A stretch of DNA of 21,306 nt from a virus. Where the stretch lies: positions 1 through 21,306 of the IMG/VR virus record IMGVR_UViG_3300037264_004915; one strand, 5' to 3'. Positions 354-20,980 of this stretch are shown one piece after another (position 1 is the stretch's first letter; each line of letters starts with the position of its first letter). The position numbers and the translations under genes are program-made. The notes under the pieces are model-generated. The model was not told the DNA's origin, did no database searches, and saw only the letters and a program-made list of their open reading frames with translations.

Positions 354-3071
354 TTAAAGGCCTATTGTGTCCCAATACCCCATCACACCGACAGACACCG
401 TCGGTGTTCCGCCGCCACTAACGGAGAATCTGATAGATTGATCGGGGTTGGTGACCATAACCACAGTGTCGCGAGATACGCCGGTTCCGTCGGTAACGAC
501 GTCGATTCCAGAAACAACAGATGGGTTCGTGGCAGATCCGAAAAGCTGCAGCTGGGTTTGGCTCAACGAACTTGAGGATATGCTACTAAGGCTCAGCCAG
601 AGAAAGGCCTTGCGCGCCGTGGACGGCATTCGCGGGGCTAGATTCACAATTATTGGGGTCTGCGCGGTCAGCCCGAATGCCACCGCTCCGCCGTCGTTCG
701 TTAAACTAAACGCTATATTGTAGTTAAAATGTAAGAAGTCCCCTATCTGCAATGTGTTTATTAAATCTGCGCTCGTGTGCTTTGTGAAAATGGACCCGAC
801 GCGCCGCTTATATAGGTTCGACTGTAGGTTAGCACCTGTTGAAGAAGTGTCGAACTGGCACGTTGTTCCGGATGCTGTATTGTATACGAAGCCGTGGTAG
901 ATGTCGTTCGTTGTGGCCGCAGACGTTAGTCCAAGAGCTCCTATTGTCCCTGTGTTAACGGTGAATGAGCCGTTTTTCACTGTGATTGTTCTCCCACTGG
1001 AGTCGAACAGCTGAAGAGCTGTGTAGCTGACGATGACGCTAGTGGAGTTCGTCACTGATACGGTGAGGGTTCGGTCGCTCTGTCCCGCATCGATGCGCAG
1101 AAGCCCCGTCCCGTTCGGGTCAATTGTTATGGTCCCGTTGGTTGTCGCGCCAGTTAAGGTGTCGGTTCGAACAACCTTACCAGCCGTAACGTTAAGGTTC
1201 GTGCCGACCGGTGTAATCGTCATGTCCCCAGACACGTTTATAAGCGTGTTCGGGACCGTGGAAATCTTGTCCCCGGTGATAGACCCAGCCAGCATCGCAT
1301 TGGTAATGGTGGAGTACGCCAACACGTTACCGGCGCTAACGGTCAGCGCCGTTGACGCGGCCCCCTGCGCCAAGATTACGAAGAAGCTACCGTTGGACGC
1401 CAGAAGGTCACCAGACGCGGCCGTGGTGGGAGATACGGATACCGTGGACCCGGAGACGGATATGTTACTGCCGGCCACGGGGGAGCTCCCGCTCCCGGCA
1501 ATGGTGTAATCGATCGTGGAATTCGTGGGGTTTGAAGTTGAGGTCACGCCCGTACCCGTGATGTTGACCGTGCGGCCCAGCTGCGTGTTGGTCCCGTTGG
1601 TCTGCCACAGCGTATGCCCCCGAGCTGACATCCGAACCTCAGCGTAGAAGTACTCTATTGGGGTGGGAAGGTCGTCGTAGGGGTTCGTGCCGATGAACTG
1701 ATTCGTGATGTAGACCCACCCGGCATTACGCTGGTGGGCGAGCGCCATATCCGCTTCCATCTGAGACGCGATGTTAGTCCCGTCAGCCGTGTCTCCGTGG
1801 ACTATGTGGTAAAACTTACTAGGTGGATAGTTTTTCGTCCAGGCAACGGGGGAGTAGGTCTGGTACGTCGTGTGGTCCCCCTCAAACGTGCAGATGATGT
1901 CCCCACACCGCGTGTACAGTTCCGTGAGAGGCTCTGTCCCTGGGTTCAGAATGACGATCTTCTGTCCAGCTCTCTGGGTTTTTACGTAGTTGAAGAGCGC
2001 CTGAACGTAGGGCTGAAGGGCGACGGACGTAGGGCACTGGTCGAAGAACACACCGTCAATGTTGGGGAAGAGATAGTAGTAGGTGTCGATCTCAGCTTGG
2101 ACGGCGGCGGAGGATTTGGCCCCGTTCGTCAGGGCTACGTACCCCACCACAGAAATACCAACCGCAGTCACAGAGACGGATTGCGTCTGGTACACGCCGA
2201 TTGTTCCGGCGTCCGCATACGGTCCGGAGTTGGGGTTGATGACCGCAATGCCAACGGAAGGGGCCCCGGCGAGCAGATCGGGCCAGTAGGGGGCGCCGGG
2301 GAACGAGTATGCGGGGACCAGGAGACGGGGACCGCCGATGTTGCGGTTGACGGCGTAGTTCTGTGGGATGTCGACGTTTGCGATCAGCGTCGAAGACGTG
2401 TTCGCGGTCACCCCGGTCCCGCGGAAGTTGATCTCCGTCTGCGTCGTGGTTGTGGTGGGACTGGTGTTGTTGGTGACGAGAACGCCAAAGCCATCCGCGC
2501 CGGGGGTTGGGGTCTGCCACGTCACTGCCCCCGCGCCGTCTGCCGTGAGGACCTGCCCACTCGTGGCGGCCCCTGAGCTCACGTCGGCAGCCACGATGGC
2601 GCTGAAGGCCGGCACGGCCCCTCCGTGAAGCACTGTAGTTGCAATGCCCGCAGCCGTGGCGGCGTAGGCGGCCCCGGTGTCGTAGACGACCTTCCCGGCT
2701 CCAGATGGGGCGGGGTTGAACCGGACGTCATTGCCTTGGGCCGTCTTACCCGCCGCTGTGCCGAAGTCTGAAAAGATGTTGAGGACGTTGCTAGCAATGG
2801 TGCCCGTGAGCCCCGCGGTCACGTTCACAGTGGTGATTGCGCTGGTGGCGCCGTTGGCGATCTGCCCCAGGATCGACGCGGCGGCTGCCGCGCCCGCCTC
2901 GTATTTCCTGGTCGTCGAGTTGTAGACCGGGACCTGGCCGTTGCTTGGCGCCCCGATCGAGGCGTCGAGGGGGATGCCCAGGAAGTTGTCCATCAAGGTG
3001 GTCCACGCGATGGCTCCCACGCCCAGCGCGGCCACGAGGACCGGCAGTAACTTGATCAGCTTCCTTCGCAT
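354..3071 (-). CDS. Tail fibre/spike with Spherulin-4 (GH135-like) glycoside hydrolase domain
   Basis: 905 residues; ATG at 3071 with AGGAGG 7 bases upstream. Residues 1-22 look like a signal peptide or membrane anchor (RRK, then hydrophobic 8-22, with Ala20-Ile-Ala22). Residues 40-245 are Gly/Ala/Thr-rich fibre shaft with motifs common in tail fibres (GTAAGKTAQGNDVRF at 104-118, SGQVLTADGAGAVTW at 171-185). Residues about 249-480 match the Spherulin-4 pattern: LLVPAYSFPG, AVINPNSGP, VVGYVALTNG, DGVFFDQ (Asp344), then CTFEGDH (Glu397). Residues 490-905 are a second beta-rich Ser/Thr/Gly region, probably trimeric fibre. Known family activity (Sph3, GH135) is endo-cleavage of alpha-1,4-linked N-acetylgalactosamine polymers. 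I infer a capsule or exopolysaccharide depolymerase. Gln345 follows the Asp where I expect Glu, so activity is uncertain. The C-terminal third is visibly more AT-rich than the packaging genes. Confidence 0.85.
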   Translation of the reverse strand: MRRKLIKLLPVLVAALGVGAIAWTTLMDNFLGIPLDASIGAPSNGQVPVYNSTTRKYEAGAAAAASILGQIANGATSAITTVNVTAGLTGTIASNVLNIFSDFGTAAGKTAQGNDVRFNPAPSGAGKVVYDTGAAYAATAAGIATTVLHGGAVPAFSAIVAADVSSGAATSGQVLTADGAGAVTWQTPTPGADGFGVLVTNNTSPTTTTTQTEINFRGTGVTANTSSTLIANVDIPQNYAVNRNIGGPRLLVPAYSFPGAPYWPDLLAGAPSVGIAVINPNSGPYADAGTIGVYQTQSVSVTAVGISVVGYVALTNGAKSSAAVQAEIDTYYYLFPNIDGVFFDQCPTSVALQPYVQALFNYVKTQRAGQKIVILNPGTEPLTELYTRCGDIICTFEGDHTTYQTYSPVAWTKNYPPSKFYHIVHGDTADGTNIASQMEADMALAHQRNAGWVYITNQFIGTNPYDDLPTPIEYFYAEVRMSARGHTLWQTNGTNTQLGRTVNITGTGVTSTSNPTNSTIDYTIAGSGSSPVAGSNISVSGSTVSVSPTTAASGDLLASNGSFFVILAQGAASTALTVSAGNVLAYSTITNAMLAGSITGDKISTVPNTLINVSGDMTITPVGTNLNVTAGKVVRTDTLTGATTNGTITIDPNGTGLLRIDAGQSDRTLTVSVTNSTSVIVSYTALQLFDSSGRTITVKNGSFTVNTGTIGALGLTSAATTNDIYHGFVYNTASGTTCQFDTSSTGANLQSNLYKRRVGSIFTKHTSADLINTLQIGDFLHFNYNIAFSLTNDGGAVAFGLTAQTPIIVNLAPRMPSTARKAFLWLSLSSISSSSLSQTQLQLFGSATNPSVVSGIDVVTDGTGVSRDTVVMVTNPDQSIRFSVSGGGTPTVSVGVMGYWDTIGL

Positions 3072-3083
3072 CTGCGACCCTCC

Positions 3084-3533
3084 TTACTGAGAAGCCAGAA
3101 TAGCGTCGATGTCGACAGAATCTGGTGTGGCATTGTTCGTAGCCTGGAGTTGGACGCGCTTGCAGAACGGCACGCTGACAGCCACCACGTGCCAATTATC
3201 GTCAGTCAACGTGATGATTGTTCCGCCAGTCTCCGGCACGACAAAGTTCGTCTCGTCAATGGAGCACAACACTCGAATAGTGCAGTTGGTCGCTGTGATC
3301 CCGGCCGTAACCCCCCGCACCTGGATCGACATGTCCTTCGACTGGCCGATCGCTGTGAATTGCGGAGTCGCAGTGACGGTGGTCGTGGCGGTGATCGTCT
3401 GCGCCGCGAACATTATTTTGACGTCGGTGCGAAGGTTCGAGTCCGACGCCAGTAGTTGCGCGGGCGGCTGGTTCAGGCAGAGGGCGAGAAAGCCTGTCAG
3501 CAGAATCGCCGCTACAATGCGGGGGTAGGTCAT
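3084..3533 (-). CDS. Small exported-looking beta protein, function unknown
   Basis: 149 residues; ATG at 3533 with an AAGGAGGAG ribosome site, 27 bases after the end of the giant ejection-type gene and 12 bases before the fibre start. The N-terminus (Arg5, hydrophobic 6-18, Cys19, then QPPAQLLA) resembles a Sec signal peptide. The sequence before Cys19 (Leu-Ala-Leu) is a poor lipobox because position -1 is Leu. The mature part is Thr/Val-rich (TITATTTVTATPQFTAIG) with later segments suggesting a beta-sandwich, and has three cysteines (NCTIRVLC, then FCKR). I do not recognise the family. Its place between an ejection-type protein and the large fibre suggests a small virion or tail-surface component. 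A secreted accessory is the main alternative. Confidence 0.75.
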   Translation of the reverse strand: MTYPRIVAAILLTGFLALCLNQPPAQLLASDSNLRTDVKIMFAAQTITATTTVTATPQFTAIGQSKDMSIQVRGVTAGITATNCTIRVLCSIDETNFVVPETGGTIITLTDDNWHVVAVSVPFCKRVQLQATNNATPDSVDIDAILASQ

Positions 3534-3560: not shown

Positions 3561-6500
3561 TTACCAGTAACTGCTGGACTCGCGCTGCGCCCGCCGCCTC
3601 TCCCGGGTCCGATCCTTCTGATACTCCGTCTTGTACGGCTTCGAGGGGGCTGTAGACAAAGACTTGGTGGCGTGTTCAGAAACCTTTTCGGACCCCAGGA
3701 ACTTGCGGGCCAGGTCGCTGCCAGTACGGTACATAGCAACGCCAAAGGTATTGCGGATCTTGCGGTCCGCCTCATCCATGAAGTCCCTCCCCGATCCCCA
3801 CGACCGACCTTTCACCACATCCACCGCCGCCTCCCCACCGGAGCTGAGCAGGTCCGCGACGGTGGATATCAAGACGTCCAGGCCAGCAGCACTGACCACC
3901 GGGTCATCCCGGCGCTTCGGAGCCCCTGGCAACCCGAACTTGGTAGCCACCTGGGCGATCCGTTCGCCGAAGGGGAGCTCCGACCAGAGGATCCCCCACA
4001 TCTCATCATCATTCAGGTGCCCCAACGCCGCCATGGTTTTAACCACTGCGGCGGTGGTGAGCCCGTATTTCGTGAGCTTGCCCGCAGCTCCAGCAGCACC
4101 CTTGATGTCCCGGCCTTTGACGTTCTTGAAGACATCCCACGCCATGTTGCCAACGTGGCGTAACTGGGCCAGGTGGGACTTCTCGAAGAGCCCCAGGGCG
4201 CTGAACCCTGGGTGCCCCCCTGCCGGCGCCTGAACGAGGGCCAGCTGAGCATCCGACACCCGCAGTGCAAAGTCTGTGCACCGGTCCATGCGCTGTTCGC
4301 GCGTCAGGTTCGGATCCGTCCGCTGCAGACGGTTGCGCTCTGCCAGAAAGGCAGCGACCTTGGTCTGCGTGTCCGGAATGTATACATTGGAAGCGAGCGT
4401 CTTCCGCAGCATTGATGCTCGCTGGTCCACACCGTCGACAATGCTCTCCTGCTCCAGGACCCCCGACTCCCGGAGCTCCCCCATGATGTCGGCCGGCAAC
4501 TTGTTGAACCAGTACTTGAGCGCCTGGGAATGGCCGTAGGAGTAGTCTCGCAGAGCAGTCTCAGCCACGAGCCTACTCTGGCCCCCAGTCATCTGGCGCC
4601 AGAAAGACCTGGCGTTACCGAAGATGTGCTTGGCCGCGGCGAAGGTATTCATGCGTCCAATGATGGAGTCGCTCAAGGGGCGGGCCCCAGGCATATTCTC
4701 CCCCATCCGGAGAGCCGCGATCTGAGGGCCCGAGAACGCCTGGGGCCAGTCCTTCCCCCCGATCCGGACCTTCCAGGTCTGCCCACGGGTGGGGGAGACG
4801 TAGTCCTTCCCCACGACCTCAAAGGCCCCGTCGAGACCCAAGGCCCCGTCGAGAGGGAAGGTGTCGCCTGGCTTCGGTTCGGCCTTCAATTTGTCCCCGA
4901 GGTTCCATTGCTGCAGTCCCGCATCCCAGACGTGCGGAGACTTGAAAACAACACTCTCGACGTACCGGTCCAGCATCATCCGGCCCCGTTCGTCGAGGCC
5001 AGCCCGCAGGTCCGTCATCTTCTCGATCATCTGCCCGCGCACGATCTTGTCGATGACACTCTGGGCGTATTCCCACATCACATCGACGGAGTTCCGGACC
5101 GGCCTCGTGTCTGTCGTGCGGCGCTTCTCTGGCGCCGTCTTGGGTTCCTTCTCGTACCATGCGCGCGGGGGTCCGGATTGAGATCGGCGGGCCTGCCCCA
5201 GCTCATCCCTGACCAGGCTGTCGATGTTCCCGATGGTGCCCCATTCGTAGGGCCAGTACTTGTCTCCCAGGTTTCTGAACAGATTCCTGCCACGGACGAA
5301 ATCCAGGAATCCAGTCGCCGGCTCCAGCATCTGCTTGAAGATAGGCGCATGCTGCCGGGCGGCGGCCTGCTCCGCCGGCGTCAGAGACTGCCCTTCCCGT
5401 GTCTTGGCCACCGCCTCCCACAGATCAGGCCCGGCCTCCCGGTACCGCTCCTTCAACCACTGCCGGCCAGACTCATTGCCGAACAGGAAGGTCTCCATCG
5501 AGTCCGCCAGCACATTCCGCAACCGGGTGGCTTCTATGCCCAGCTGGTTGAGTCCCGTCTTCTGCATCCAACTGTCGGTAGCCGCTGGCTTCATGTAGGT
5601 GTCGGCGAAGCGGCGCATGTTCTCCAGGGCCCCACCAACCCCCGACACGTCCGGCAACAGGACCGGAGTCAGCTGCGCATTCAAGGTCTCGATCTGGAAA
5701 GGCACGCCAGACCCGGGGCCACCTGGCGCCCCCGGCGGTGGAGCTGGCTGGGGGCCGGGGCCCTGCATCTTGGTGAAAAGCTTCCGCCCCGTCCCTTTGA
5801 TCGCCCGCCCCAAGTTGCTGAAAGCCTGTTGGATGGCCGCCGCATTGGGTACGATCAGAGCCCCCTGCTGCCGGCGCTGAGATCTCCTTCCCACCGGCCG
5901 CACTCGCCCGGCGCCCCCGCCAGAGATCGAGATCCGCTTCTTCCCGGGGGCGATCTGACGTTCAGAAATCTTAACTTCTCCCTGCTTCGCCTGCTCAATC
6001 ATGGCGTCCACATCTTGGAAAGATATCGCACCTGGTTGGGATTCAAGCTTCCTGGCTGCCTCATCGGCGGCGATCTCCGCGCGCGACGGCGGGGGCGCCG
6101 GGGCCGGTTCCTCAGGGCCCAGCACCCGCATCTCCTGTCGGATCGCAGCCAGCTCCGGCGATACCGGGGCCTCGGTGGCTGGCCGTATGTTCACAGGGCC
6201 CGCTGCCACTGCGGCCTCCCCCGGAGGGACTGGTTCATTGGGAAGTAGTCGCATCTCCTGTCGGATCGCAGCCAGCTCCGGCGATACCGGCGGCTCCGCC
6301 ATGGGTGCAGCAGGCTCGGGCCTCATCCCGAACATGCGTCGCCCCGCTGGCATTGGGGCCAATGCAGGCTGGCGTCCACTGGATCCCCAATGGCCCATCA
6401 TTGTTGCACCCACGTACGCCTCGAGGGGCTGCTCCAGGTTCCGGTTCGACAACTCCGACAGATAGGCCTCCGAGCGCGCCAGGATCCCGGGCATCGAGTT

Positions 6501-7238
6501 CGGATCCTGGCCGGCGGCAAGAGCTGCAATTGAAGGAAGTGCCAACGTGTTCTCGACGAAGGTCTGCATGGGCTGCAGTAATCCTTGGGCCTGCGGGGTG
6601 AAGTTCTCCCCTCCGGGCGCCCCCAAAGCTGCATTGACCCCCGACCCCACGACGTTGCCGACCGCGGATCCGAACCCTGGATATGCCGCAGCCAGGTCCA
6701 GCGGGGCCTTGACTGCCCGACCGAGGAGGTAAGGGTCTGCAAACCCTTTGCCGCTGGCGGGCGGGATGCCGAAAGCATCCCGGACCGGGGCCATGACGCG
6801 CTCCATCGGGGTGCCTTCTTGTTGAATGGTGCGGTACTCCCCGGCCCCGATGGGCATGGTGGCGTAGTCGATGGCATCCGTCGGCAACTTTACGACGACG
6901 TCTGCATTCTCCAGGCCCGCCTCGATCCACCCAGGCCCCTCCTCGCCCTGCTGCAAAGGCTGCTTGGAGATCTTCTTCTTCAACCCCCGGGCTATTCGCT
7001 TGAACTCCCCTTCGCCCCACCGCTGGCGGAACTCATCTTGGCGAGAGTGCAGCAGCTGCGCCAGGTTCATTAGCCGGGCGCCGGGGTCCCTCTCCGCTTT
7101 GGCGCGGGCCACCTCTTCCTCCAAAGCCACGAGGCGCGGCGGGGCCGGTTCCGCTGCAGGCTCCTCCGGCGCCCAAGACACAGAGGCGTTGGTGATCTGA
7201 GCTTCATCGTCATCCGGTGCGAAGAGTCGCCGGGCCAT
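3561..7238 (-). CDS. Giant internal virion/ejection-type protein (1225 aa)
   Basis: I choose ATG 7238 (1225 residues). It overlaps the preceding TGA by one base (TGATG) and has GAGGTG five bases upstream; a TTG one codon earlier is less likely. N-terminal residues 1-110 are charged and helical. Residues about 160-280 have Gly/Ala-rich hydrophobic stretches (SAVGNVVGSGVNAALGAPGG). Residues 300-400 are a Pro/Ala linker holding the repeat PVSPELAAIRQEMR twice (317-330 and 358-371). A basic tract lies near 445-490 and a Pro/Gly linker near 497-512. The rest is long, mostly helical and soluble, ending in a basic Arg/Lys-rich tail. No catalytic motif was recognised. Size, linker architecture and position after the tail genes fit the large ejected proteins of podoviruses. 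This is a role inference, not a family match. Confidence 0.8.
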   Translation of the reverse strand: MARRLFAPDDDEAQITNASVSWAPEEPAAEPAPPRLVALEEEVARAKAERDPGARLMNLAQLLHSRQDEFRQRWGEGEFKRIARGLKKKISKQPLQQGEEGPGWIEAGLENADVVVKLPTDAIDYATMPIGAGEYRTIQQEGTPMERVMAPVRDAFGIPPASGKGFADPYLLGRAVKAPLDLAAAYPGFGSAVGNVVGSGVNAALGAPGGENFTPQAQGLLQPMQTFVENTLALPSIAALAAGQDPNSMPGILARSEAYLSELSNRNLEQPLEAYVGATMMGHWGSSGRQPALAPMPAGRRMFGMRPEPAAPMAEPPVSPELAAIRQEMRLLPNEPVPPGEAAVAAGPVNIRPATEAPVSPELAAIRQEMRVLGPEEPAPAPPPSRAEIAADEAARKLESQPGAISFQDVDAMIEQAKQGEVKISERQIAPGKKRISISGGGAGRVRPVGRRSQRRQQGALIVPNAAAIQQAFSNLGRAIKGTGRKLFTKMQGPGPQPAPPPGAPGGPGSGVPFQIETLNAQLTPVLLPDVSGVGGALENMRRFADTYMKPAATDSWMQKTGLNQLGIEATRLRNVLADSMETFLFGNESGRQWLKERYREAGPDLWEAVAKTREGQSLTPAEQAAARQHAPIFKQMLEPATGFLDFVRGRNLFRNLGDKYWPYEWGTIGNIDSLVRDELGQARRSQSGPPRAWYEKEPKTAPEKRRTTDTRPVRNSVDVMWEYAQSVIDKIVRGQMIEKMTDLRAGLDERGRMMLDRYVESVVFKSPHVWDAGLQQWNLGDKLKAEPKPGDTFPLDGALGLDGAFEVVGKDYVSPTRGQTWKVRIGGKDWPQAFSGPQIAALRMGENMPGARPLSDSIIGRMNTFAAAKHIFGNARSFWRQMTGGQSRLVAETALRDYSYGHSQALKYWFNKLPADIMGELRESGVLEQESIVDGVDQRASMLRKTLASNVYIPDTQTKVAAFLAERNRLQRTDPNLTREQRMDRCTDFALRVSDAQLALVQAPAGGHPGFSALGLFEKSHLAQLRHVGNMAWDVFKNVKGRDIKGAAGAAGKLTKYGLTTAAVVKTMAALGHLNDDEMWGILWSELPFGERIAQVATKFGLPGAPKRRDDPVVSAAGLDVLISTVADLLSSGGEAAVDVVKGRSWGSGRDFMDEADRKIRNTFGVAMYRTGSDLARKFLGSEKVSEHATKSLSTAPSKPYKTEYQKDRTRERRRAQRESSSYW
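6127..6290. repeat. Exact 41-bp direct repeat within the giant ejection-type gene
   Basis: Copies at 6127-6167 and 6250-6290 are identical, with a 123-base offset (41 codons). They encode the two PVSPELAAIRQEMR segments in the Pro/Ala linker. Exact DNA identity suggests a recent duplication or conversion. Confidence 0.9.
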
Positions 7239-8749
7239 CAATCCACCTCATCTACGTCTTCCAGTTCTGAGTCGAAGTCCCCCATGGTGGGGTCCTTTGC
7301 TTTCGCCGGCCCCCCAGATGGGCGAGACTTGGCAAGATCTAGGGCCATGAGCTGCTGGCGCTTTGCGATCCGGAGCTTCAACGCGTCGTAGTCCTGGGGA
7401 GTCGGGTTGGGGGGCAGCATATCTTTGAGAAGGTTCTTGCGGTCCAGCTTGCCCATGGTCCGATCCGCCTCGACCATGGACCTCCAACCCGAAGCCACAC
7501 TGGGTGTGGACGCCTTGCTCGCCCGGAGCTTTTCCGTCCCCCGGACCCGCTCGTTCGTTCGGATCTTCGCAATCCGCTCGGCCGACTCCTCCATGATGGT
7601 GTTGATTTCCCGCTGCCGAGCTACGCGGGGGGTCGTCCGCGCCCGCTCCGTTGCTGCAGCGATCTCTGGATTCAACTGCAGGTCCGCATACTTTTTCATG
7701 AACATGCGGTCCCCATATCCGGACGTGACCGCCGGCTGCCGCCCTTCCTCCTTGGCCTGGGCTTGCGACCGCTCATTCTCGTTGATGTCTCCCCGCATCG
7801 CAGTCTCTTGACTCACCCGGCCGGCGACCCGATTCGAAGCGCCAGCGTAGGACTTCCGCCCCTCCCGGTCTACGAGGATGGGGGTCATCAGAGTTTCGTC
7901 CGCCCGGCGCCGCTCGTTCTCTGCAGCGATCTTCCCCGGGTTCATCATCGTCTGCGTCCCGATCTTGGCAGTCTGCACTGCCCGCTCCTTCTCGCCGGCG
8001 TACTGCGATTCCAGGACCCCTTTCTTGGCCTGGTCCGCCAGCTCGTAGCTGCCGGCGAAAGGGTTCTCCTGCTGCATCTGCTGAACTACCTGGTTACTCT
8101 GGTTCTGCAGTTCCTGCAGCTTGGCCTGGAGGAGCAGGTCATGCGCTGTCTGGGCAGCTTCCCGGACCGGCACACCCTTCTTCCGGAGCTCCGTCACAAT
8201 GGCGACCATAGCGTCGGCCTTACCCTGCAGGTCGTCGCCCGGCAGGGGCGGCGCCCCGCTGGGAACCGGTGGCGCCATCTGGCTTGGCAGCTGCCCGCGC
8301 CGCGTGCGTGAGAACACCTTACCCAGGTCGGCATACCCTCCTTCGGTGTAGGCCTGGCTGATCCCCTGCGCGACCTCCGGATCAGAAAGCGCGGGCCCCA
8401 GGAGCTTCGGGGCCTTCTCATAGACGGCCAGCTTTTCCGCCATCCGTTCCGCCGGAGCTCGGGCCTGGGCATTCACTCGATCCGCATCCATTTGGCTTAT
8501 GTTCAGAATGGGGGCGGACACCAACCCCGGGTTAACGCTAGACAAATCCGACTGTGACTGTTCCGGCAATGGACCCGGCAGACCCTTAAGTCCTACAGCC
8601 CCCAAGAAATTCACGTTGCCGGCAGATCCCGTGCTTGCATCCAGCCCGGGGGATAACGAGTCACTCCCGGGGATAGACGGGGGCGTCCCAATGGAGTAGG
8701 ATCTCCGCGGGGTCCGGGACCGACGGGGCTGGTAGCTCTTGCGCCGCAT
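7238..8749 (-). CDS. Candidate internal virion protein, basic N-terminus and acidic C-terminus
   Basis: 503 residues from ATG 8749, which has AGGGGG eight bases upstream. A TTG at 8755 would add two residues but sits too close to that ribosome site. The N-terminus is strongly basic (MRRKSYQPRRSRTPRRSYS), as in DNA-contacting or packaged proteins, followed by a Gly/Pro/Ser-rich segment to about residue 75. Residues 95-300 are helical and Gln/Ala-rich, with a likely coiled coil at about 200-232 (LLLQAKLQELQNQSNQVVQQ). The C-terminus is acidic (DFDSELEDVDEVD). Its stop overlaps the next gene's start by one base. I recognise no enzyme domain. The position between the Gln-rich 269-residue protein and the giant protein suggests one of a set of three ejected or internal core proteins. 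Confidence 0.78.
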   Translation of the reverse strand: MRRKSYQPRRSRTPRRSYSIGTPPSIPGSDSLSPGLDASTGSAGNVNFLGAVGLKGLPGPLPEQSQSDLSSVNPGLVSAPILNISQMDADRVNAQARAPAERMAEKLAVYEKAPKLLGPALSDPEVAQGISQAYTEGGYADLGKVFSRTRRGQLPSQMAPPVPSGAPPLPGDDLQGKADAMVAIVTELRKKGVPVREAAQTAHDLLLQAKLQELQNQSNQVVQQMQQENPFAGSYELADQAKKGVLESQYAGEKERAVQTAKIGTQTMMNPGKIAAENERRRADETLMTPILVDREGRKSYAGASNRVAGRVSQETAMRGDINENERSQAQAKEEGRQPAVTSGYGDRMFMKKYADLQLNPEIAAATERARTTPRVARQREINTIMEESAERIAKIRTNERVRGTEKLRASKASTPSVASGWRSMVEADRTMGKLDRKNLLKDMLPPNPTPQDYDALKLRIAKRQQLMALDLAKSRPSGGPAKAKDPTMGDFDSELEDVDEVD

Positions 8750-8751
8750 GC

Positions 8752-9561
8752 TCAATACCCCCTTCGATAGGCTGAATAGAGGCTCTCGCCCCCGACATTA
8801 TTCACCAAGTTTCGAACGGAGATTGGCGTCGGAACCTGTGGCGTCTGGTAAGGGTTGAATAGCCGATACTGCCCTGCCAAGGCCCCCAAAGACTTCAACC
8901 CCTGGCCGAAATTGGCCTGGCCGATATCGAACTCATTGAGCTCAGACTGGTACTGGTTCTGAGCGTTGGTCTGACCCAGCTGCGCCCGGGTGTTATAGAG
9001 AGTCCCCAGCCCCTGCCGGGCTGCGACGGAGTTCGTGGATTTCTGCCCTTCGAGGCTCGCGAGTAACTGCTGGATGCGCCCTCGCTGGTCGAATTCCTGC
9101 TGCATCAGGTTGGTCCCGACCCCGGCCAACTGGTTCTGTGCGTTCTGCGCCAAGTTGCCCAGCTGCTGGCCGTAACTCTGATCGATCATCCCCTGGCGAA
9201 CACCGAGACCCCCAGAGCCCAGGAGCCCCAGCCGGTTGGCCTGCTCCGCCGACCCCCGGGTCGCGCGCTCGCGCTCCATGTTCAACTGCTCCGCCACCTG
9301 GCTGAAGCTGGTCCGTGCTTCGTTGCGCGCCTGGTCCAACATGGCCTGTCGATAGGCCGGAGGGAGCCCCCGGTCCTGCTGTTGCATGAGTCCCTGGCCG
9401 AACTGGCTGCCAGTCGGGTCGTAAATCGGCGCGGCTTGGTTCAGCTGCCCTGATATCTGCTGCAGATTGGGTTGCTGGGGCTGTTGATACTGCGGGGGTT
9501 TCTTACCGAAGAGCGAAGACACCGCGGAAAGAGCTGAAGGAACCAAAGAAAGCCAGTCCAC
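8752..9561 (-). CDS. Candidate Gln-rich internal virion/ejection protein
   Basis: 269 residues from a GTG at 9561; TAGGAGG five bases upstream supports this start and overlaps the region just after the collar-fibre stop. The N-terminus (MDWLSLVPSALSAVSSLFG) is amphipathic and hydrophobic, then residues 20-60 are Pro/Gln-rich (PPQYQQPQQPNLQQ). A long helical Gln/Asn/Ala-rich middle (about 65-215) follows, including a glycine-rich turn LGLLGSGGLGVRQG. Short, hydrophobic-ended, Gln-rich proteins of this size are typical of the smallest ejection protein in podoviruses such as the P22 gp7 or T7 gp14 roles; I infer that role from size, composition and order, not from a detected homology. The N-terminal segment could insert in membrane during ejection. 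Confidence 0.75.
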   Translation of the reverse strand: MDWLSLVPSALSAVSSLFGKKPPQYQQPQQPNLQQISGQLNQAAPIYDPTGSQFGQGLMQQQDRGLPPAYRQAMLDQARNEARTSFSQVAEQLNMERERATRGSAEQANRLGLLGSGGLGVRQGMIDQSYGQQLGNLAQNAQNQLAGVGTNLMQQEFDQRGRIQQLLASLEGQKSTNSVAARQGLGTLYNTRAQLGQTNAQNQYQSELNEFDIGQANFGQGLKSLGALAGQYRLFNPYQTPQVPTPISVRNLVNNVGGESLYSAYRRGY

Positions 9562-9570
9562 GATGTCCTC

Positions 9571-10482
9571 CTAGAGCTTGATGATCTTGTTCAAGATCAT
9601 CGTGGGTTGCAAAATCGGATGCGCATTTCCGGAGCCGGCGCTGTTGATAGTTATGCCAGTGGTTTTGGTATCCGTCATATTCGGGATGCCATCGCTAGTA
9701 TCTACCCCTGCGCCAGTGCCGTTGAGAGACGGGTTATTGGTGTGCTTGGCCGTGTGGAAGTGGCCAGGATCTGTTACGCCGTGGCTGTGTGCTGCCAGCT
9801 GCGCCATTGTGAGCGTGTGGTTCTGCAACCCCCCGGCCAAACCATTTGTTGTGCCGGCGAAGTTGCCGCCGGCAACCGTGATCCGCGAGGCGGTTGATCC
9901 GCCCATATTATCGGCGCCTGCCACAACTCTGCCACGCAGGTCTGGAATGACGATCGTCTTGTTCGCGGCGTAGTCGGTGGCCGCTTCGGCAGCTGTAGTC
10001 CCACTACCTGTACGACCTCCCGACACCGCAGCTTCCGCGTTGGTCATTGAGATGTAAATCAACACGAACAGCGCCTGCGTGTCTGCGTTCGCGCGCCCCG
10101 TCCCCCCGCTGGCCGCATTGCCCAGAGTCCGCCCACTTGCAAGAACATACCCAGGCGGGGCAACTATTCCGATGTAGTCCTTGACAACCCCTGTCTGCTC
10201 GAGCTTCAGAACTACGGCTGAGTCAAGCTTCGCTTCCGTCACTGCGTTAGCGATAATCTTGGGCGTCGATATGGCGTTATCCAGGAGGTTGGCGGTTCCG
10301 ATGTTCCCCTGGAGTTCGTTGTAGGCGGTGTCGTAGTCGGAGTTCAACTCCGACGCGCGAATGGTCCCACCCGCAGTGAAAGTAAAAGGCTTGGTGGGGG
10401 TTGTGGTGTTATTGGCCAGGGCCCCCGCGCTGAGCAATGCCACCGCCGAGACCAGAACCACGAATTGCCAACAGCTCTTCAT
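9571..10482 (-). CDS. Tail-collar-domain fibre with N-terminal signal-like sequence
   Basis: 303 residues from ATG 10482, which overlaps the upstream TGA by one base (TGATG); an in-frame extension to 10578 lies inside the previous gene and is not used. Residues 1-23 look like a Sec signal peptide: Lys2, hydrophobic 7-19, Ala-Leu-Ala at 21-23. Residues 31-55 match the fibre motif FTFTAGGTIRASELNSDYD. Residues about 102-195 form a phage tail-collar domain (DYIGIVAPPGYVLASG, then IPDLRGRVVAGADNMGG). The C-terminal part has the His-x-His pairs H232/H234 and H241/H243 and ends in HPILQPTMILNKIIKL. T4 gp12-type short fibres use such His pairs to bind metal in the trimer. Likely receptor-contacting fibre. 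The signal-like start is unusual for a virion protein. Confidence 0.88.
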   Translation of the reverse strand: MKSCWQFVVLVSAVALLSAGALANNTTTPTKPFTFTAGGTIRASELNSDYDTAYNELQGNIGTANLLDNAISTPKIIANAVTEAKLDSAVVLKLEQTGVVKDYIGIVAPPGYVLASGRTLGNAASGGTGRANADTQALFVLIYISMTNAEAAVSGGRTGSGTTAAEAATDYAANKTIVIPDLRGRVVAGADNMGGSTASRITVAGGNFAGTTNGLAGGLQNHTLTMAQLAAHSHGVTDPGHFHTAKHTNNPSLNGTGAGVDTSDGIPNMTDTKTTGITINSAGSGNAHPILQPTMILNKIIKL

Positions 10483-10820
10483 CAAAACACCATCACCTTC
10501 AAAGCGACATTGTTTCTGGCGCAATGGAGCACTATTTGAGCTGGCGTCCACAGGGCTTGGTCGGCCGCTGTCGCCCAAATGGTAGTCTCGTCGTTGGTGT
10601 GGACCAGGATAAAAAAGAGGGGCACCCAGCTCAATTTCAGAGCAGTGATATTTATAGTTTGAGGGCTATTATTCCCCGAGGTGTGTGTGTAGGAAACAAT
10701 GTGGCTCCTGGTCACGTTGTCGTGAAGATTCAGCCCCCCTCGCAGCAACCGAAAGACACGCTTGAGCTCGTCGTTGATCCGCTGATCCGCGGGGAAGTTG
10801 AGTTCTCCGGGCCGGGTCAT
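10482..10820 (-). CDS. Small virion-region protein, unknown
   Basis: 112 residues. The ATG at 10820 overlaps the stop of the tail-hub gene as ATGA, and its own TGA overlaps the collar-fibre ATG, so it is translationally coupled on both sides. The N-terminal third is charged and helical (ELNFPADQRINDELKRVFRLL). The rest alternates beta-like hydrophobic segments (LSWVPLFFILV) and polar turns. There is no signal peptide and no recognised motif. Small proteins between the tail hub and the first fibre often link the two or act in fibre assembly; that is inferred from position only. Confidence 0.75.
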   Translation of the reverse strand: MTRPGELNFPADQRINDELKRVFRLLRGGLNLHDNVTRSHIVSYTHTSGNNSPQTINITALKLSWVPLFFILVHTNDETTIWATAADQALWTPAQIVLHCARNNVALKVMVF

Positions 10821-13988: not shown

Positions 13989-14996
13989 TCAGGCGTCGAT
14001 GCCGAACAGGATGGCCATGTGTCGGCGGTTCACGAGTGTTGCGTTTCCTTCCCAGATATTCTGGGAAGTGATGGCCTCCTGATTGGCAGGCCGGATCCAG
14101 GGATCCTGCTTGAAGAATGCGTCCGGGTGGCACCGCAAGTACATGTACTTGCTGTTGATCCAGAAAAAGCGATCCTTGCCGCCGGAGTCCGCGGGGCAGT
14201 TCAGATCGAAGACGACCGGGATGCCCTTGTACCAGAGGCGGGCGAAGCCCGGGTCCAGATCCTTGGTCCCCTGATTCATGTAAAACAGCTGCTTGTTCGA
14301 GCCGTGGAACGCCTTCTCGAAAAAGTTGTACCCGTTGGCCGTCCCGATGATCAAATCGGGGATGCCGCTCGAGCGCCCGCGCGAAGTCTGGATCCAAGCG
14401 CGGTCGAACTCGTCGATGCCGTTGGAGGCAAACGAGCCCACCGACTTGAAGTAGTTCCTCCACCAGGTGCTGGTGGCTCCGGCGATACCTCCGACCAGGA
14501 TCGTCGGGTCGGACGACGGCGCCTCCTTGATGTACGCGGACAGTCCGCCGATGGCCTTCTGGAAGTTTCCCGTACCATCCAGATAGATATCAGCGTTGAT
14601 ATCGTCCTTGTTCCGCATCTGTGCGTGCATGATGCGGGCCTTCGCCAGGTCCTTGATCTGCCGCGAAGAACGGGACCGGAGCTCCTGGCCGGAGATCGTC
14701 GCCGACTGGTAGTACCCCTTTCTCCGGTACTCAGCGATGGTGAAATTCTCCCCCGGGTTTGTGTCCAAAACGTCGTAGTTGGCGTAAGATCCGCCACCAC
14801 CCGCCTTGTCATACATCAGGGGCTCCTGGATGATATCGCCGCCCTCATACCACTCCACGCGGCCCTTCTTCGCCAGGAATTCCAAGAGCGGAATCCCGTC
14901 GAAGATGTTGTCAGGGATCTCGTCCGGACGGGCCTGGTAGAACCCAGCCATCGTCAGAACGTCACCCCAATAATGGGTCAATGACTGCCCCGGCAT
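13989..14996 (-). CDS. Major capsid protein
   Basis: 335 residues; ATG at 14996 with the strongest ribosome site in the block (GGAGGTGATGATCC), as expected for the most abundant virion protein. It follows the scaffold gene by six bases. The N-terminal part (WYEGGDIIQEPLMYDKAGGG, then GYYQSATISGQELRSRSS) fits an HK97-fold N-arm and extended loop; the helical spine is at about 112-155 (IKDLAKARIMHAQMRNKDDI). The segment SSGIPDLIIGTANGYNFFEKA and the C-terminal strands fit the A domain and P domain of such capsid proteins. It forms the shell on the scaffold. Assigned from position, length, ribosome site and overall pattern. Confidence 0.88.
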   Translation of the reverse strand: MPGQSLTHYWGDVLTMAGFYQARPDEIPDNIFDGIPLLEFLAKKGRVEWYEGGDIIQEPLMYDKAGGGGSYANYDVLDTNPGENFTIAEYRRKGYYQSATISGQELRSRSSRQIKDLAKARIMHAQMRNKDDINADIYLDGTGNFQKAIGGLSAYIKEAPSSDPTILVGGIAGATSTWWRNYFKSVGSFASNGIDEFDRAWIQTSRGRSSGIPDLIIGTANGYNFFEKAFHGSNKQLFYMNQGTKDLDPGFARLWYKGIPVVFDLNCPADSGGKDRFFWINSKYMYLRCHPDAFFKQDPWIRPANQEAITSQNIWEGNATLVNRRHMAILFGIDA

Positions 14997-16290: not shown

Positions 16291-16704
16291 CTATGAAGGG
16301 ATGCTCCCTCGTTCTTGCATCGCCCGGTCGATCGCCGCGTCGATTTTTTGTGACTGCTCCCGGATGTATTTCTCCCGACACTCTTTCGCGCGCCGGGCGG
16401 TATTTTCAACTTGAGCTCGCGCATCCCCCGGTTCGGCCGGACGGACGTTCTGGCGCTTCATCGCATCTTCCCAGTCGCGACGGGTCGTGAACACCGTGGG
16501 CTCCGCCCCCGGGTTCAAGGTCCGGTCGACCATGTAGTGCAGGCGGTTTCCAGTCCCGACCTCAGCGACCGGAACGATGACCCGCACCAGCTGCCCCCCG
16601 CAATGCTCGCACGCGGGGCGGTATCCGTTCCGGTAGTCGTCCATGGCGATGAAGTGATCCTGATCCATGGCGCACCCCGAACAGCGGAAAGGGTAAGTCG
16701 CCAC
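16291..16704 (-). CDS. Zinc-ribbon protein (FmdB-like pattern)
   Basis: 137 residues. The GTG at 16704 overlaps the portal TAG by one base (TAGTG), so it depends on coupling to portal translation. Residues 5-36 form a zinc ribbon: Cys8-x2-Cys11 and Cys32-x2-Cys35 (FRCSGC, then ACEHCGG), like FmdB-type putative regulatory ribbons. The rest is helical and charged (residues about 95-135, RAKECREKYIREQSQKIDAA). Role unknown. It is placed among packaging genes, so a portal- or DNA-associated assembly factor is as likely as a regulator. Confidence 0.78.
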   Translation of the reverse strand: MATYPFRCSGCAMDQDHFIAMDDYRNGYRPACEHCGGQLVRVIVPVAEVGTGNRLHYMVDRTLNPGAEPTVFTTRRDWEDAMKRQNVRPAEPGDARAQVENTARRAKECREKYIREQSQKIDAAIDRAMQERGSIPS

Positions 16705-18827
16705 TACTGTCCCACCTTTCGACTATCCACGCGGGTCTGCTGCGTGGGGTTGGGCGCTTGCTGGTTGAACATGCGCGGCTGGATGGGGTACCCCGGGGCG
16801 GGGTTGGCCCGACCCTGGCCTCCCTGGAGTGGTACCACATTGCCGCCCGGCCCCCCGCCGGGCGGTGGCACCCCCCCGAGAGGCGGGGGGCCCATGCCCC
16901 CCGCCGCCTGCTGGACTTGCTGCAGCATCATAGACTGTTGCATGGCAACGGCCATGCGCTGTTGCTCTTCGTAGTCCAAGTGCTTCTTCAAGTGCATGAG
17001 GCGCCTCCACCGATCCTGGTCATCCTTGGCCTCCTGCAGCCCCTGGGTGTGGATGAGAATGTGCTGGGGATGATTGTCGTTGGGGGAGAAGATCGGCATG
17101 CCCCCTTGGAACAGAAGCTCCTCTTCGTTCTCTGGATTGGCCGGCGGCCGGTTCTGATCATCGGAGACCAGGAACCGTTCCGGATTCGGGACCTCCAACT
17201 TCTCCATCAGATACCGCACCAGCTCGTCAAATTTCAGCAGGTCCGGCCTCTGCACCGCAATCGGCGCCAGGATGGAGAACTGGTCCAGGGCCCCCTTCTT
17301 TTCCAGTTCCTTGTCCGGCGGCAGCTGGGTCCCGACGTCGATGTCGATCTCGAAGTCCCCCTCCACCGCCTCCTTGTCCAGCTTCTCATAGGCCCAGTCC
17401 GCCCGGCCGGTGACCTTGATCCACTCCTCACGGTCCCAGTAGACCCGCAGCAACTGGTGGACCCCGACCGCCACCCAGCGGATCAGGGTCGAGACCTGGT
17501 ATCGCTGATATCCGATCCGCGCCGCGGTCGCGTTGGAGATCGCCCGGATCTCCGTCGCCGTGGTCCCCTCTGGCGCGGACCCCGCGCGCTGGTAGTCGGC
17601 GACCCCCGATATCTGCTGAACGTCTGTCTTGATCGCCGCTTCGCAGCGCCAGGTGTCCGCCGACACCGGGTTGGCCGGCATGCTGGTCACCATGCCCTCC
17701 GGCGAGCCATCGACCATGATGACCTGCTGGACGCCCTCGCGGAGGTCATCCTGCATCTGCTTGGACATCTTGCTCGCGTCCACCAGGTGCTTGGGAATTT
17801 CGCGCTTGATGTGGTCGAGCGTGTAGGTCCGGATCTTATTGAGCTCTTTCTGCTGGGGCTTCCACACCGAATTCGGCGGGATGGCGTAGGGAGTGTCCGG
17901 CACCGGAACGCCCAGCTGGAGCGCCGCGAACGGGAAGAACGGGTAGGGGTTGTCGTCCTCGCGCAGCATCACGCCTTGGTGGGGGCACACCACGTAGAGC
18001 TTGTTCTCCGTCTTGTGCCAGAACTCCCACAGCACGATCTGGTTGTCCTTGACCTTGGCCAGGGTCGTGATGCCGGACGCGTAGGGCCCCTGGTCATCGT
18101 TGATGTCGGGGGAGCTGCGGGACGGCGCCTTGGACGTCGAGAACAGGTCGTTGATCGGACCTGTTGCCGTCAGCTTGCTGGTGTTCTTGTACTTGGGGTC
18201 CTTTTTGACATCCTTGACGTCCCGGATGATTTCCTGCGCCAGCCACTCCGAATCGTTGAAGTCCCCGCAGAGCGGGTCGATCCAGGCGGAGAGGAGTGAC
18301 ACGCGCCCCAGGATGGGAGTCTCCCCCACCGCCATGGTCCGCTGCTCGACATCGAACTCCGACAGGTCGATTTCTTCCGTCTCGTCGACGACCTTCATGG
18401 CCCCGGTGGCCCGGTCGATGGTAACCGCGACCTCCACATCCCGGGTCCGGTACCCCAGCTTCACCAGCGCCATGGCCATACAGTGCGCATCCACAATGAG
18501 GCGCTGAACCGTGCGCTGCGTCCCCATCTTGCCCAGCGCGTACTGGACCGCCGCCTCGACGACGGGGGCCTTCACAATATCCTGGGGCCGGCGCGCGCGG
18601 GCCACGACGCGGGGATCGCGCCAGTAAAGGGTCGGCATGATGGCCATCAAGTTGGCCCACGCCAGGTTGACGTCCACCCGGTCGACATCCTCGAACTCGT
18701 GCTTGGGGCCGAACCGGCCCATCAGGAACCGGATGTTCTCGATCCAGTCCTCTTCCAGATCCCGGCGCAGCATCTGGGCCTGCGACACCATCTCGACGAT
18801 TTCAGCGACTTTCAGGGACGATGCCAC
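16704..18827 (-). CDS. Portal protein
   Basis: 707 residues; GTG at 18827, GGTGG seven bases upstream, four bases after the large terminase gene. Order, size and the helical N-terminus (VAEIVEMVSQAQMLRRDLEE) followed by VDVNLAWANLMAIMPTLYWR match portal proteins of podoviruses. The conserved wing and stem helices run to about residue 480 (LIRWVAVGVHQLLRVYW, FEIDIDVGTQLPPDKELEKK). The C-terminal 60 residues are Gly/Pro/Gln-rich (MGPPPLGGVPPPGGGPGG) and disordered. It forms the dodecameric vertex ring through which DNA is packaged and leaves. It binds the terminase before and the adaptor after packaging. Confidence 0.88.
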   Translation of the reverse strand: MASSLKVAEIVEMVSQAQMLRRDLEEDWIENIRFLMGRFGPKHEFEDVDRVDVNLAWANLMAIMPTLYWRDPRVVARARRPQDIVKAPVVEAAVQYALGKMGTQRTVQRLIVDAHCMAMALVKLGYRTRDVEVAVTIDRATGAMKVVDETEEIDLSEFDVEQRTMAVGETPILGRVSLLSAWIDPLCGDFNDSEWLAQEIIRDVKDVKKDPKYKNTSKLTATGPINDLFSTSKAPSRSSPDINDDQGPYASGITTLAKVKDNQIVLWEFWHKTENKLYVVCPHQGVMLREDDNPYPFFPFAALQLGVPVPDTPYAIPPNSVWKPQQKELNKIRTYTLDHIKREIPKHLVDASKMSKQMQDDLREGVQQVIMVDGSPEGMVTSMPANPVSADTWRCEAAIKTDVQQISGVADYQRAGSAPEGTTATEIRAISNATAARIGYQRYQVSTLIRWVAVGVHQLLRVYWDREEWIKVTGRADWAYEKLDKEAVEGDFEIDIDVGTQLPPDKELEKKGALDQFSILAPIAVQRPDLLKFDELVRYLMEKLEVPNPERFLVSDDQNRPPANPENEEELLFQGGMPIFSPNDNHPQHILIHTQGLQEAKDDQDRWRRLMHLKKHLDYEEQQRMAVAMQQSMMLQQVQQAAGGMGPPPLGGVPPPGGGPGGNVVPLQGGQGRANPAPGYPIQPRMFNQQAPNPTQQTRVDSRKVGQ

Positions 18828-18831
18828 TGGG

Positions 18832-20325
18832 CTACCACCGCTTCCCTAGTCTGAGCATCCGGGTGTGGATCAGTTCTGGCGGCATGTGCTCGTTCCCCAT
18901 CCGTTGGGAGGTTTTGACGGCCCGACCCCTCATCTGCCGGAGCCATTCCGGCGACATCTCCGGGGGTTCAGTCTCACGGGCTTGGGCCCGGGTCGGCGCA
19001 TGAATAACCCCATAACCCAGGCCATCACAGCAATCATCATCGAAATCTTGAGGCTCATCTTTCCCCCCGGTCTCGTCGCCTGGCTGTTTCTTCTTCCAGC
19101 TGTACCCCCGCATCTCGTCGAGGAGCGGGCCGCACCGGCCCCGCATGAAGACGATGCCGGGCCGCCCTTCGAGGGTGTCGGTGAGCAGCGCCCCCACGCG
19201 CTCGAGCCGGGTGTCGATGTCCCGGTCCGCGTTGTCCGCCGAGATACCGTACGGCAGGAGCTCCCGCCTGGTCCCCTGCGCCGAGGCGTCCAGGCGGAAC
19301 TGGGCCCGGATCGCCGCCCTTTCGCTGGGGATCTTCCGCTCCTCGATCGCCTTGAAGATCCGCTCCGCCGCGCCCGTGTCCACTGCGTGTGGTGCGTGCT
19401 CCATGTACATGCGAAGGATCGCGCGCGCGTGGTGGACCATGAGCTGCTCCGCCTGGGCGTAGACTTTCCACACCACGATCCGTCCGGTCTCGTCGACCGC
19501 CATGTTGATGGCCGCAAACGGGTGCCGAAATCCGTAGTCCATCCCGGTAATAAGGGGCCAGTGGGGCTGGAGCTCGAAGGGGTCCACCACATGTATCGAT
19601 TCGTCCAGCTGCGGCCAGATCAGACCTTCGAGCGAGACGAAATCTCCGTTCATACGGGCATTCCGGATGTTGGGGTTCATCCCCCCGAACACGCGCCGCA
19701 CGCGCTCTTCGTTCAGGCTCGTGTTCTCCGTCGTCTTCCACTGGAAGATCTGAAGGAGGGACTGGGGAAAGGACTTCCGCTTCGAGAAGATGCGCTTGTG
19801 GACCCAGGTCTTCCCCTGCAGCGGCGTCATCGTCACCCAATGGTTCCCCTGCTTCGCGATCAGGCGCACCATGACCTCGTCATAGACGGCTTCCGGGCAC
19901 TCCTCATCAAACCAGGCCCAGTCGATGCGGGCCCCCTGGAACTTCTGCCACCCCTGGCCGTAGGTCCGGAAGACGATCTTGGACCCGTTCTGCATCTCGA
20001 TGTGCACCACGTCCCCCTTGACCACGCGCAGAACCGACGATGGGGGTAGGAGCGGAAGAAGGGTCGGCAGCAGAACCTCATTGACGAAAGTACGGTCGAT
20101 GGTGATGATCCACCCAATCGACGGCTCCGCCACATCGCGATACGGGTGCAACCCCGTCGCATGCCACGCGGCCTCGCGGGCGCCGGCCGTCGACTTTCCG
20201 GACTGGTTCCCGGCGATGATCCACCGGGATTCGGCGGGGGATTGGTGGAACTCCGTCTGCTTGCCGACCGGCCGCATCGTGAACAGCAGATGCTCCTGGA
20301 TGTCCTCTGTGTCGGTGTCAGACAT
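18832..20325 (-). CDS. Terminase large subunit
   Basis: 497 residues from ATG 20325, which overlaps the small terminase stop by eight bases; a GTG at 20334 would add three residues. The N-terminal ATPase has Walker A at about 38-46 (AGNQSGKST), Walker B at about 134-142 (IDWAWFDEE) and a WVTMTPLQG coupling segment at about 163-171. The C-terminal RNase-H-like nuclease has the first acidic residue at about 263 (ITGMDYGFRHP) and the late acid-rich motif DFDDDCCDGLGYGV with Asp434. This is the packaging motor and headful or site-specific nuclease, working at the portal. All expected catalytic elements are visible; nothing is missing. Confidence 0.95.
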   Translation of the reverse strand: MSDTDTEDIQEHLLFTMRPVGKQTEFHQSPAESRWIIAGNQSGKSTAGAREAAWHATGLHPYRDVAEPSIGWIITIDRTFVNEVLLPTLLPLLPPSSVLRVVKGDVVHIEMQNGSKIVFRTYGQGWQKFQGARIDWAWFDEECPEAVYDEVMVRLIAKQGNHWVTMTPLQGKTWVHKRIFSKRKSFPQSLLQIFQWKTTENTSLNEERVRRVFGGMNPNIRNARMNGDFVSLEGLIWPQLDESIHVVDPFELQPHWPLITGMDYGFRHPFAAINMAVDETGRIVVWKVYAQAEQLMVHHARAILRMYMEHAPHAVDTGAAERIFKAIEERKIPSERAAIRAQFRLDASAQGTRRELLPYGISADNADRDIDTRLERVGALLTDTLEGRPGIVFMRGRCGPLLDEMRGYSWKKKQPGDETGGKDEPQDFDDDCCDGLGYGVIHAPTRAQARETEPPEMSPEWLRQMRGRAVKTSQRMGNEHMPPELIHTRMLRLGKRW

Positions 20326-20980
20326 CGTCCCCACCCCCGGCTTCTGGTCCAGCCCCTGGGGAGTAAGGGTCCTGAGGGTCCGTCCCAGTCGGCTCCAGTT
20401 CCTTGTCGGGAACGATCTCCAGGATCCTCCGCCCCTGCGCCCGGAGCTGCTCCTTAGCCCCCTTCAGGTCGGGAGCCAGCGTCTTGCCGGGGATCAAGCC
20501 CGCTAAACGTATCCCGATGTGGCTGGCTTTGACCCGGCTCGATCGGGGAGCATTCTCATCCGATGCCGCGTCGACCAACACCTGGGCGAACATCGGGGCC
20601 GAAGCCGCTAGCATGTTGTGCGCCCGCTCCAGCGCGCGCCGGGCGTAGCTCCGAAAATACGGGCTCGCCGTCCAGCGCGCGGCGATCTCCGCCAGGTGGT
20701 TGCGGGACCAGAAGATGTCAAACCCATCCTTGGTCTCGTACTCCGGGATGGGCCCCACATCCAGCTGCAAGACTTCGCGCGCAGCAGTGGCCGGATCCAT
20801 CCCCGTGGTCACCCGGAAGGCAAAGGTGTTCCGGAGCCTCTTCTCCGCCTTGCTGAGCCGATCCCACCCAACGTCTTCCCGATCCTCGCGGGCCCACCAT
20901 TTCCGAATATCCTGAACCACCTGCTGGGTGCCCAGCAGCAGCATGAACTTGGTGGCGGAGATGATGGGAGTGGGATTCAA
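20318..20980 (-). CDS. Terminase small subunit (probable)
   Basis: 220 residues from a TTG at 20980. AGGGGA six bases upstream decides this start; an in-frame ATG 17 codons earlier (21031) lacks a ribosome site and would use the control region. The sequence has a helical N-terminal part (QQVVQDIRKWWAREDREDV), a helical core at about 80-140 (FWSRNHLAEIAARWTASPYF, RRALERAHNMLAASAPM), and an acidic Gly/Pro tail. Small size, position before the large subunit and eight-base coupling overlap fit a small terminase, which recognises the packaging site. Sequence divergence in this family is high, so I cannot prove it by motif. Confidence 0.65.
   Translation of the reverse strand: MNPTPIISATKFMLLLGTQQVVQDIRKWWAREDREDVGWDRLSKAEKRLRNTFAFRVTTGMDPATAAREVLQLDVGPIPEYETKDGFDIFWSRNHLAEIAARWTASPYFRSYARRALERAHNMLAASAPMFAQVLVDAASDENAPRSSRVKASHIGIRLAGLIPGKTLAPDLKGAKEQLRAQGRRILEIVPDKELEPTGTDPQDPYSPGAGPEAGGGDDV

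Follow-up and report, generated by a model that had tools for sequence, protein, structure and literature searches.

The last gene of the late operon in a 21,306-nucleotide stretch of viral DNA (hereafter the window) encodes a probable fibre protein of 905 residues, into which a Spherulin4, or GH135-like, (beta/alpha)8 domain is set, with the catalytic Asp/Glu pair of this enzyme group conserved. We consider, with a probability of roughly two in three, that this gene, from a divergent phage of podovirus type, encodes a receptor-binding protein in the form of a tail fibre or of a tailspike-like protein, and that its GH135-type barrel has the putative activity of cutting a host exopolysaccharide. 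The family assignment, the predicted fold, the location of the gene among virion genes and the association of the same domain with tail genes in other phages all bear on this reading, and are presented below together with three competing explanations. The features of the window are collected in Table 1.

Table 1. Features of the window discussed in the text (all coordinates refer to the whole 21,306-nucleotide stretch).
Feature	Position	Strand	Basis
Gene of 905 aa for a probable tail fibre or receptor-binding protein	354..3071	-	ORF, ribosome-binding site, operon position, flank composition
C-terminal 425 residues: Ser/Thr/Gly-rich, no Glu; putative fibre-like shaft and head	354..1631	-	
Spherulin-4 / GH135-like (beta/alpha)8 domain, residues 250-477	1641..2324	-	PF12138, AlphaFold2, VIA-align
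E397, opposite Sph3 Glu222 (general acid/base)	1881..1883	-	Glu in 60/63 relatives
Q345, opposite Sph3 Glu167	2037..2039	-	Relatives: Glu 46/63, Gln 5, other 12
D344, opposite Sph3 Asp166 (nucleophile)	2040..2042	-	Asp in 63/63 relatives
N-terminal 248 residues: hydrophobic signal/anchor-like start, fibre-type sequence	2328..3071	-	Hydropathy, short shared motif
Upstream gene, 149 aa, hydrophobic N-terminus	3084..3533	-	ORF
Tail collar/fibre-type protein, same operon	9571..10578	-	PHROG 8763 tail, E 3.6e-42
Major head protein, Mx8-like family	13989..14996	-	PHROG 9953, E 2e-46
Portal	16704-18827	-	
Terminase	18832-20334	-	

The late operon and the fibre-like gene

The window constitutes an unplaced virus record (21,306 bases; G+C content 53-66%). 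Its minus strand carries the late gene set of a tailed phage, in which the 905-residue reading frame comes last. This gene shares its strand with the terminase, the portal, the major head protein, the collar-type protein and further structural genes, and thus belongs to the late virion operon; an AAGGAGG ribosome-binding site is found 8 nt ahead of its ATG. The operon is podovirus-like, of the terminase-portal-major head-tail type, and the phage itself is very divergent. The major head protein matches Myxococcus phage Mx8 and others (tblastn), and no viral relatives of it were retrieved when it was used as query of the viral contigs scanned; the terminase, used in the same way, matched one fragment. 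Three large structural-type genes (3561-7241, 7238-8755 and 8752-9561) gave no convincing match in Pfam, PHROG or NCBIfam.

An initial annotation of the window, made from the letters and their translations, had proposed fibre shaft on both sides of the Spherulin4 domain. This proposal finds support in the composition of the flanks, which contain 8-9% charged residues and are rich in Gly, Ser, Thr and Ala; the domain has 12.5% charged and, counting His, 15% aromatic residues. The Spherulin4 domain also folds in a prediction of the full-length protein, in which the flanks have no confident fold (mean pLDDT 54) and are mostly beta or coil. No fibre family of PHROG, Pfam or NCBIfam matched the flanks, the N-terminal and C-terminal parts had no match among 50,697 phage records, and the C-terminal part as query found no viral relatives in the viral contigs scanned. 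Their sole sequence match is a 30-residue motif common to the fibre-like proteins of three other loci (L095-L097), residues 29-58 being 60% identical to the protein of L095. Composition, position and this short motif indicate that the flanks are likely fibre shaft, and the protein would then be carried by the virion, possibly in the trimeric form of a fibre.

The start of the protein deserves separate mention, as hydropathy analysis reveals a hydrophobic segment at residues 5-23, preceded by a basic start. Similar signal-peptide- or membrane-anchor-like hydrophobic starts were observed on three late genes of the minus strand in all (354-3071, 3084-3533 and 9571-10578). Such starts, with their resemblance to signal peptides or membrane anchors, are unusual in proteins of the virion.

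The Spherulin4 domain and its putative catalytic residues

Residues 250-477 match the Pfam family PF12138 (Spherulin4) with an E-value of 2.2e-36 over profile positions 2-237 of 239, and the score of 126 bits lies above the curated cut-off of 30.2, which places the domain in this family, whose fungal and bacterial enzymes can cleave exopolysaccharide coats; a six-frame search located the match at 1641-2324 on the minus strand. The domain had been recognised in the initial annotation from a set of short motifs, all of which are indeed present (VPAYSFPG, INPNSGP, VVGYVALTNG, DGVFFD and CTFEGDH). When a control profile was built from 57 relatives with the window copy left out, the real domain reached 196.6 bits, against 4.6 for the highest-scoring of 500 shuffled sequences. 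In the PDB, the only sequence relatives are structures of the fungal enzyme Sph3 (5d6t and 5c5g; phmmer E 6e-10), which was again the sole sequence relative in a profile search (E 4e-40).

The fold predicted by AlphaFold2 with a 58-sequence alignment is a (beta/alpha)8 barrel with a mean pLDDT of 90.4, and its best solved match is Sph3 (Foldseek E 8e-15). Superposition on Sph3 5d6t using VIA-align gave a Z-score of 27.1 and an rmsd of 2.8 over 233 residues; the next fold match had a Z-score of 16.3, with GH18, GH191 and other barrels at approximately 16. No right-handed beta-helix was predicted for the catalytic domain, the model being instead the TIM barrel that the original family assignment implied. 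PelA (GH166) was absent among the fold matches listed, which excludes nothing, and the GH114 profile (PF03537), which did match two control genomes, found nothing in this record.

The putative catalytic residues of Sph3 are Asp166, Glu167 and Glu222 (PMC10485009), and related families use a retaining mechanism with an Asp/Glu catalytic pair (PMC12054363). The latter paper prints Asp196 as the nucleophile, a number at odds with our alignment and probably a typographical error for 166. Residues were matched to Sph3 by chain-to-query alignment and the numbering of the chain, using the catalytic residues given in PMC10485009. Both members of the pair are kept in the window copy as D344 and E397 (Table 1), and the third putative catalytic acid, Glu167 of Sph3, is not, its place being taken by Q345. 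Glutamate at this position is not family-defining, since just 46 of the 63 relatives carry it. Accordingly, the domain is filed here under PF12138, and no activity identical to that of Sph3 is claimed for it. Nor can Q345 alone serve as an argument for a dead enzyme, because the catalytic pair is kept and position 345 varies among the relatives.

Further changes occur at positions that are otherwise nearly invariant. Position 285 is Tyr in the window copy and Gly in 63 of 63 relatives, which were gathered via one conserved peptide pattern permitting G or Y at 285 and are hence not a random sample. At position 314 the window copy has Leu, where all 63 relatives have Thr or Ser, and the replacements of Tyr by Asn at 316 and by Val at 356 are found in almost no sampled relative. 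Positions T314 and Y316 come after a core strand, the motif of which, GYVxTxY, typifies the aligned relatives. The altered residues may reshape the pocket and hence lead to a different sugar or to weaker catalysis, and, given that they lie in or next to conserved motifs, a substrate shift away from the alpha-1,4-GalNAc polymer of Sph3 seems likely. Because of Q345, G285Y, T314L and Y316N, neither activity nor GalNAc specificity should be assumed. The early suggestion of a depolymerase acting on a GalNAc-rich polymer is supported in part, as to family, fold, two catalytic acids and embedding in a probable fibre, and its named substrate, a capsule or biofilm polymer, is no more than putative.

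Spherulin4 domains in other phages

The initial annotation knew of no phage fibre of this family; phage proteins carrying the domain do exist, in phage records, in IMG/VR phages and among BFVD entries. Among 50,697 phage records, PF12138 domains were detected in two, Virus Rctr41k and Rothia phage Spartoi. Gene product 21 of Spartoi comes after four minor tail proteins, and gp46 of Rctr41k, which starts with a lipoprotein-like signal, is encoded in the tail region a few genes past the tape measure gene. The window domain, used as a single sequence to scan viral contigs, gave no match; the IMG/VR phage copies were found with alignment queries. In one of these copies, a protein of 1023 aa (L012/L014), a pair of Spherulin4 domains precedes a stretch with homology to proteins annotated as minor tail proteins in Streptomyces and Arthrobacter phages. 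Other copies are found near a baseplate wedge gene (L013), immediately after the tape measure gene (L011), between the major tail and tape measure genes (L007/L008), flanked by two major tail genes (L103/L104) or shortly past the tape measure gene (L106/L107), and the phage of L010 shares the head-protein family PHROG 9953 with the window. In BFVD, several siphovirus proteins of 463-1052 aa share the fold, one of them being a tip attachment protein of J type, and BFVD/UniProt entries already named 'Spherulation-specific family 4' occur among phage proteins. The domain therefore turns up repeatedly in the tail regions of phages, and in one protein its fusion to a known tail protein is demonstrable. 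Since it occurs in the tails of other phages or next to them, its probable role is to help the virus through the coat of the host.

Several of these loci offer observations in their own right. The record containing L012 (G006) has two separate long genes, at 1664-3208 and 20205-21851, each with two tandem Spherulin4 domains. At L103 (6053-10407), a Spherulin4-bearing protein of 929 aa is encoded between two genes for major tail proteins that are paralogues of each other; a beta-helix-like, tailspike-like part after its barrel was perceived by eye and set aside, having no profile or PDB match. In L010 (3740-4999) the domain lies inside a 687-aa protein that is unrelated to the window fibre. The exception is L009 (9998-10645), where a stand-alone Spherulin4 protein of 215 aa is encoded beside helicase and primase genes, i.e., in a replication context.

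By identity, the nearest relatives of the window domain are bacterial, namely those of Chloroflexota (L015, 42-43%), Rubrobacter (L016) and Vitreoscilla, and the Chloroflexota protein looks like a secreted enzyme. In the tree, the window copy groups with L007/L008 near bacterial relatives with moderate support. The viral copies are scattered (8 changes); since a single viral clade was not rejected (AU p 0.29), repeated captures by phages are not claimed.

Proposed function, competing explanations and known systems

In the reading that we favour, the barrel, set between fibre segments, would be displayed at the surface of the virion, and on a tail fibre it would be the part that first meets the outer polysaccharide of the host. 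A chain held in the groove of the barrel would be hydrolysed by a retaining mechanism, with D344 as nucleophile and E397 as acid/base, the substrate presumably being an amino-sugar-rich surface or matrix polysaccharide. This cutting would clear a path along which the virion could move inward to a receptor at the cell surface.

Binding is required of tail receptor-binding proteins, and cleavage is not always. The main rival explanation holds that the barrel binds carbohydrate with little or no catalysis, its fold and groove being kept for attachment to a surface glycan without cutting. The replacement of Glu167 by Q345 and the unusual residues at the near-invariant positions 285, 314, 316 and 356 would agree with such a binder, but the nucleophilic Asp and the acid/base Glu are both kept, and a residue other than Glu at the Glu167 position in 17 of 63 relatives indicates that this Glu is not strictly conserved; we consider pure binding unlikely. 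Somewhat more doubtful still is the view that the protein is a secreted or membrane-anchored enzyme outside the virion, exported by its hydrophobic N-terminus and loosening the matrix for release or spread of the progeny. The hydrophobic residues 5-23 after a basic start, at a start codon supported by a strong ribosome-binding site, speak for export, as do the lipoprotein-like signal of Rctr41k gp46 and the secreted appearance of the nearest bacterial relative. However, a hydrophobic N-terminus does not mark a non-virion gene here, because a similar start is found on two further late genes, including the one of tail collar type; moreover, the long fibre-like flanks would have no obvious use in a secreted enzyme, and most other phage copies are found in tail regions and are devoid of such a signal.

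The literature offers yet another explanation. Three viral copies, from Atacama desert viruses, were reported in 2021 and read as sporulation genes, the viral SSF proteins averaging 1,265 aa in length and the gene order around unlike SSF proteins being shared (PMC8269230). By this account, the window gene would be an auxiliary gene that aids sporulation or stress survival of the host, and the name of the Pfam family and the presence of such genes in three desert viruses are in its favour. On the other hand, the relative that has been characterised acts as a glycoside hydrolase (PMC12054363, PMC10485009), most of the phage copies seen here are found in or beside tail genes and one is fused to a minor tail protein, and the mean length in PMC8269230 suits long tail proteins and not a 230-aa enzyme, so that we give this explanation hardly any credence. 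In our view, the length and the shared gene order given there for the Atacama proteins would fit modular tail proteins better. It is an evenly balanced proposition that the phage 'Spherulation-specific family 4' genes in general are not sporulation or stress genes but little-noticed tail-borne TIM-barrel exopolysaccharide depolymerases, placed in unrelated tail proteins and retuned, strongly so in the window fibre.

Phage depolymerases known so far are mostly of beta-helix fold, and Sph3 and PelA-type enzymes have already been studied for breaking biofilms. Tail-borne depolymerases are known as a kind, and the GH135-type fold appears to be undescribed in that role, no paper describing a GH135-type or Spherulin4 tail depolymerase having been found in the literature searched. 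If our reading is true, a tail-carried GH135-type barrel would be a further enzyme fold with which phages cut polysaccharide of hosts or biofilms, and the published interpretation would be corrected, viral 'spherulation' genes being tail enzymes and not helpers of host dormancy.

Among characterised enzymes, Sph3 of Aspergillus (GH135; 5c5g, 5d6t) is the closest, having the same (beta/alpha)8 fold and the equivalents of the Asp166 and Glu222 that are kept here. The two differ by sequence (23% identity), by the Gln in place of Glu167, by the changes at positions 285, 314, 316 and 356, and by context, as Sph3 is a membrane-bound enzyme of a fungus and the window domain lies inside a phage fibre-like protein. 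GH166 PelA and the GH191 and GH114 endo-galactosaminidases share the overall barrel architecture and the Asp/Glu pair (PMC12054363), but GH191 structures match the window domain (Z ~16) much more weakly than Sph3 does. Spartoi gp21 and Rctr41k gp46 are likewise PF12138 phage proteins in or after the tail region, annotated as hypothetical only, with 26-33% domain identity to the window copy and other flanking parts. The phage proteins that BFVD lists under the name 'Spherulation-specific family 4' share the fold of the window domain and come from metagenomic viruses, and the Atacama virus SSF genes share the family name and were read as sporulation helpers (PMC8269230). Finally, the tailspike capsule depolymerases, for example those of Klebsiella phages, have the same role as that proposed here, i.e., tail-borne cutting of polysaccharide. 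Differently from these beta-helix proteins, the window protein has a TIM barrel, which forms one domain within a longer fibre-like protein.
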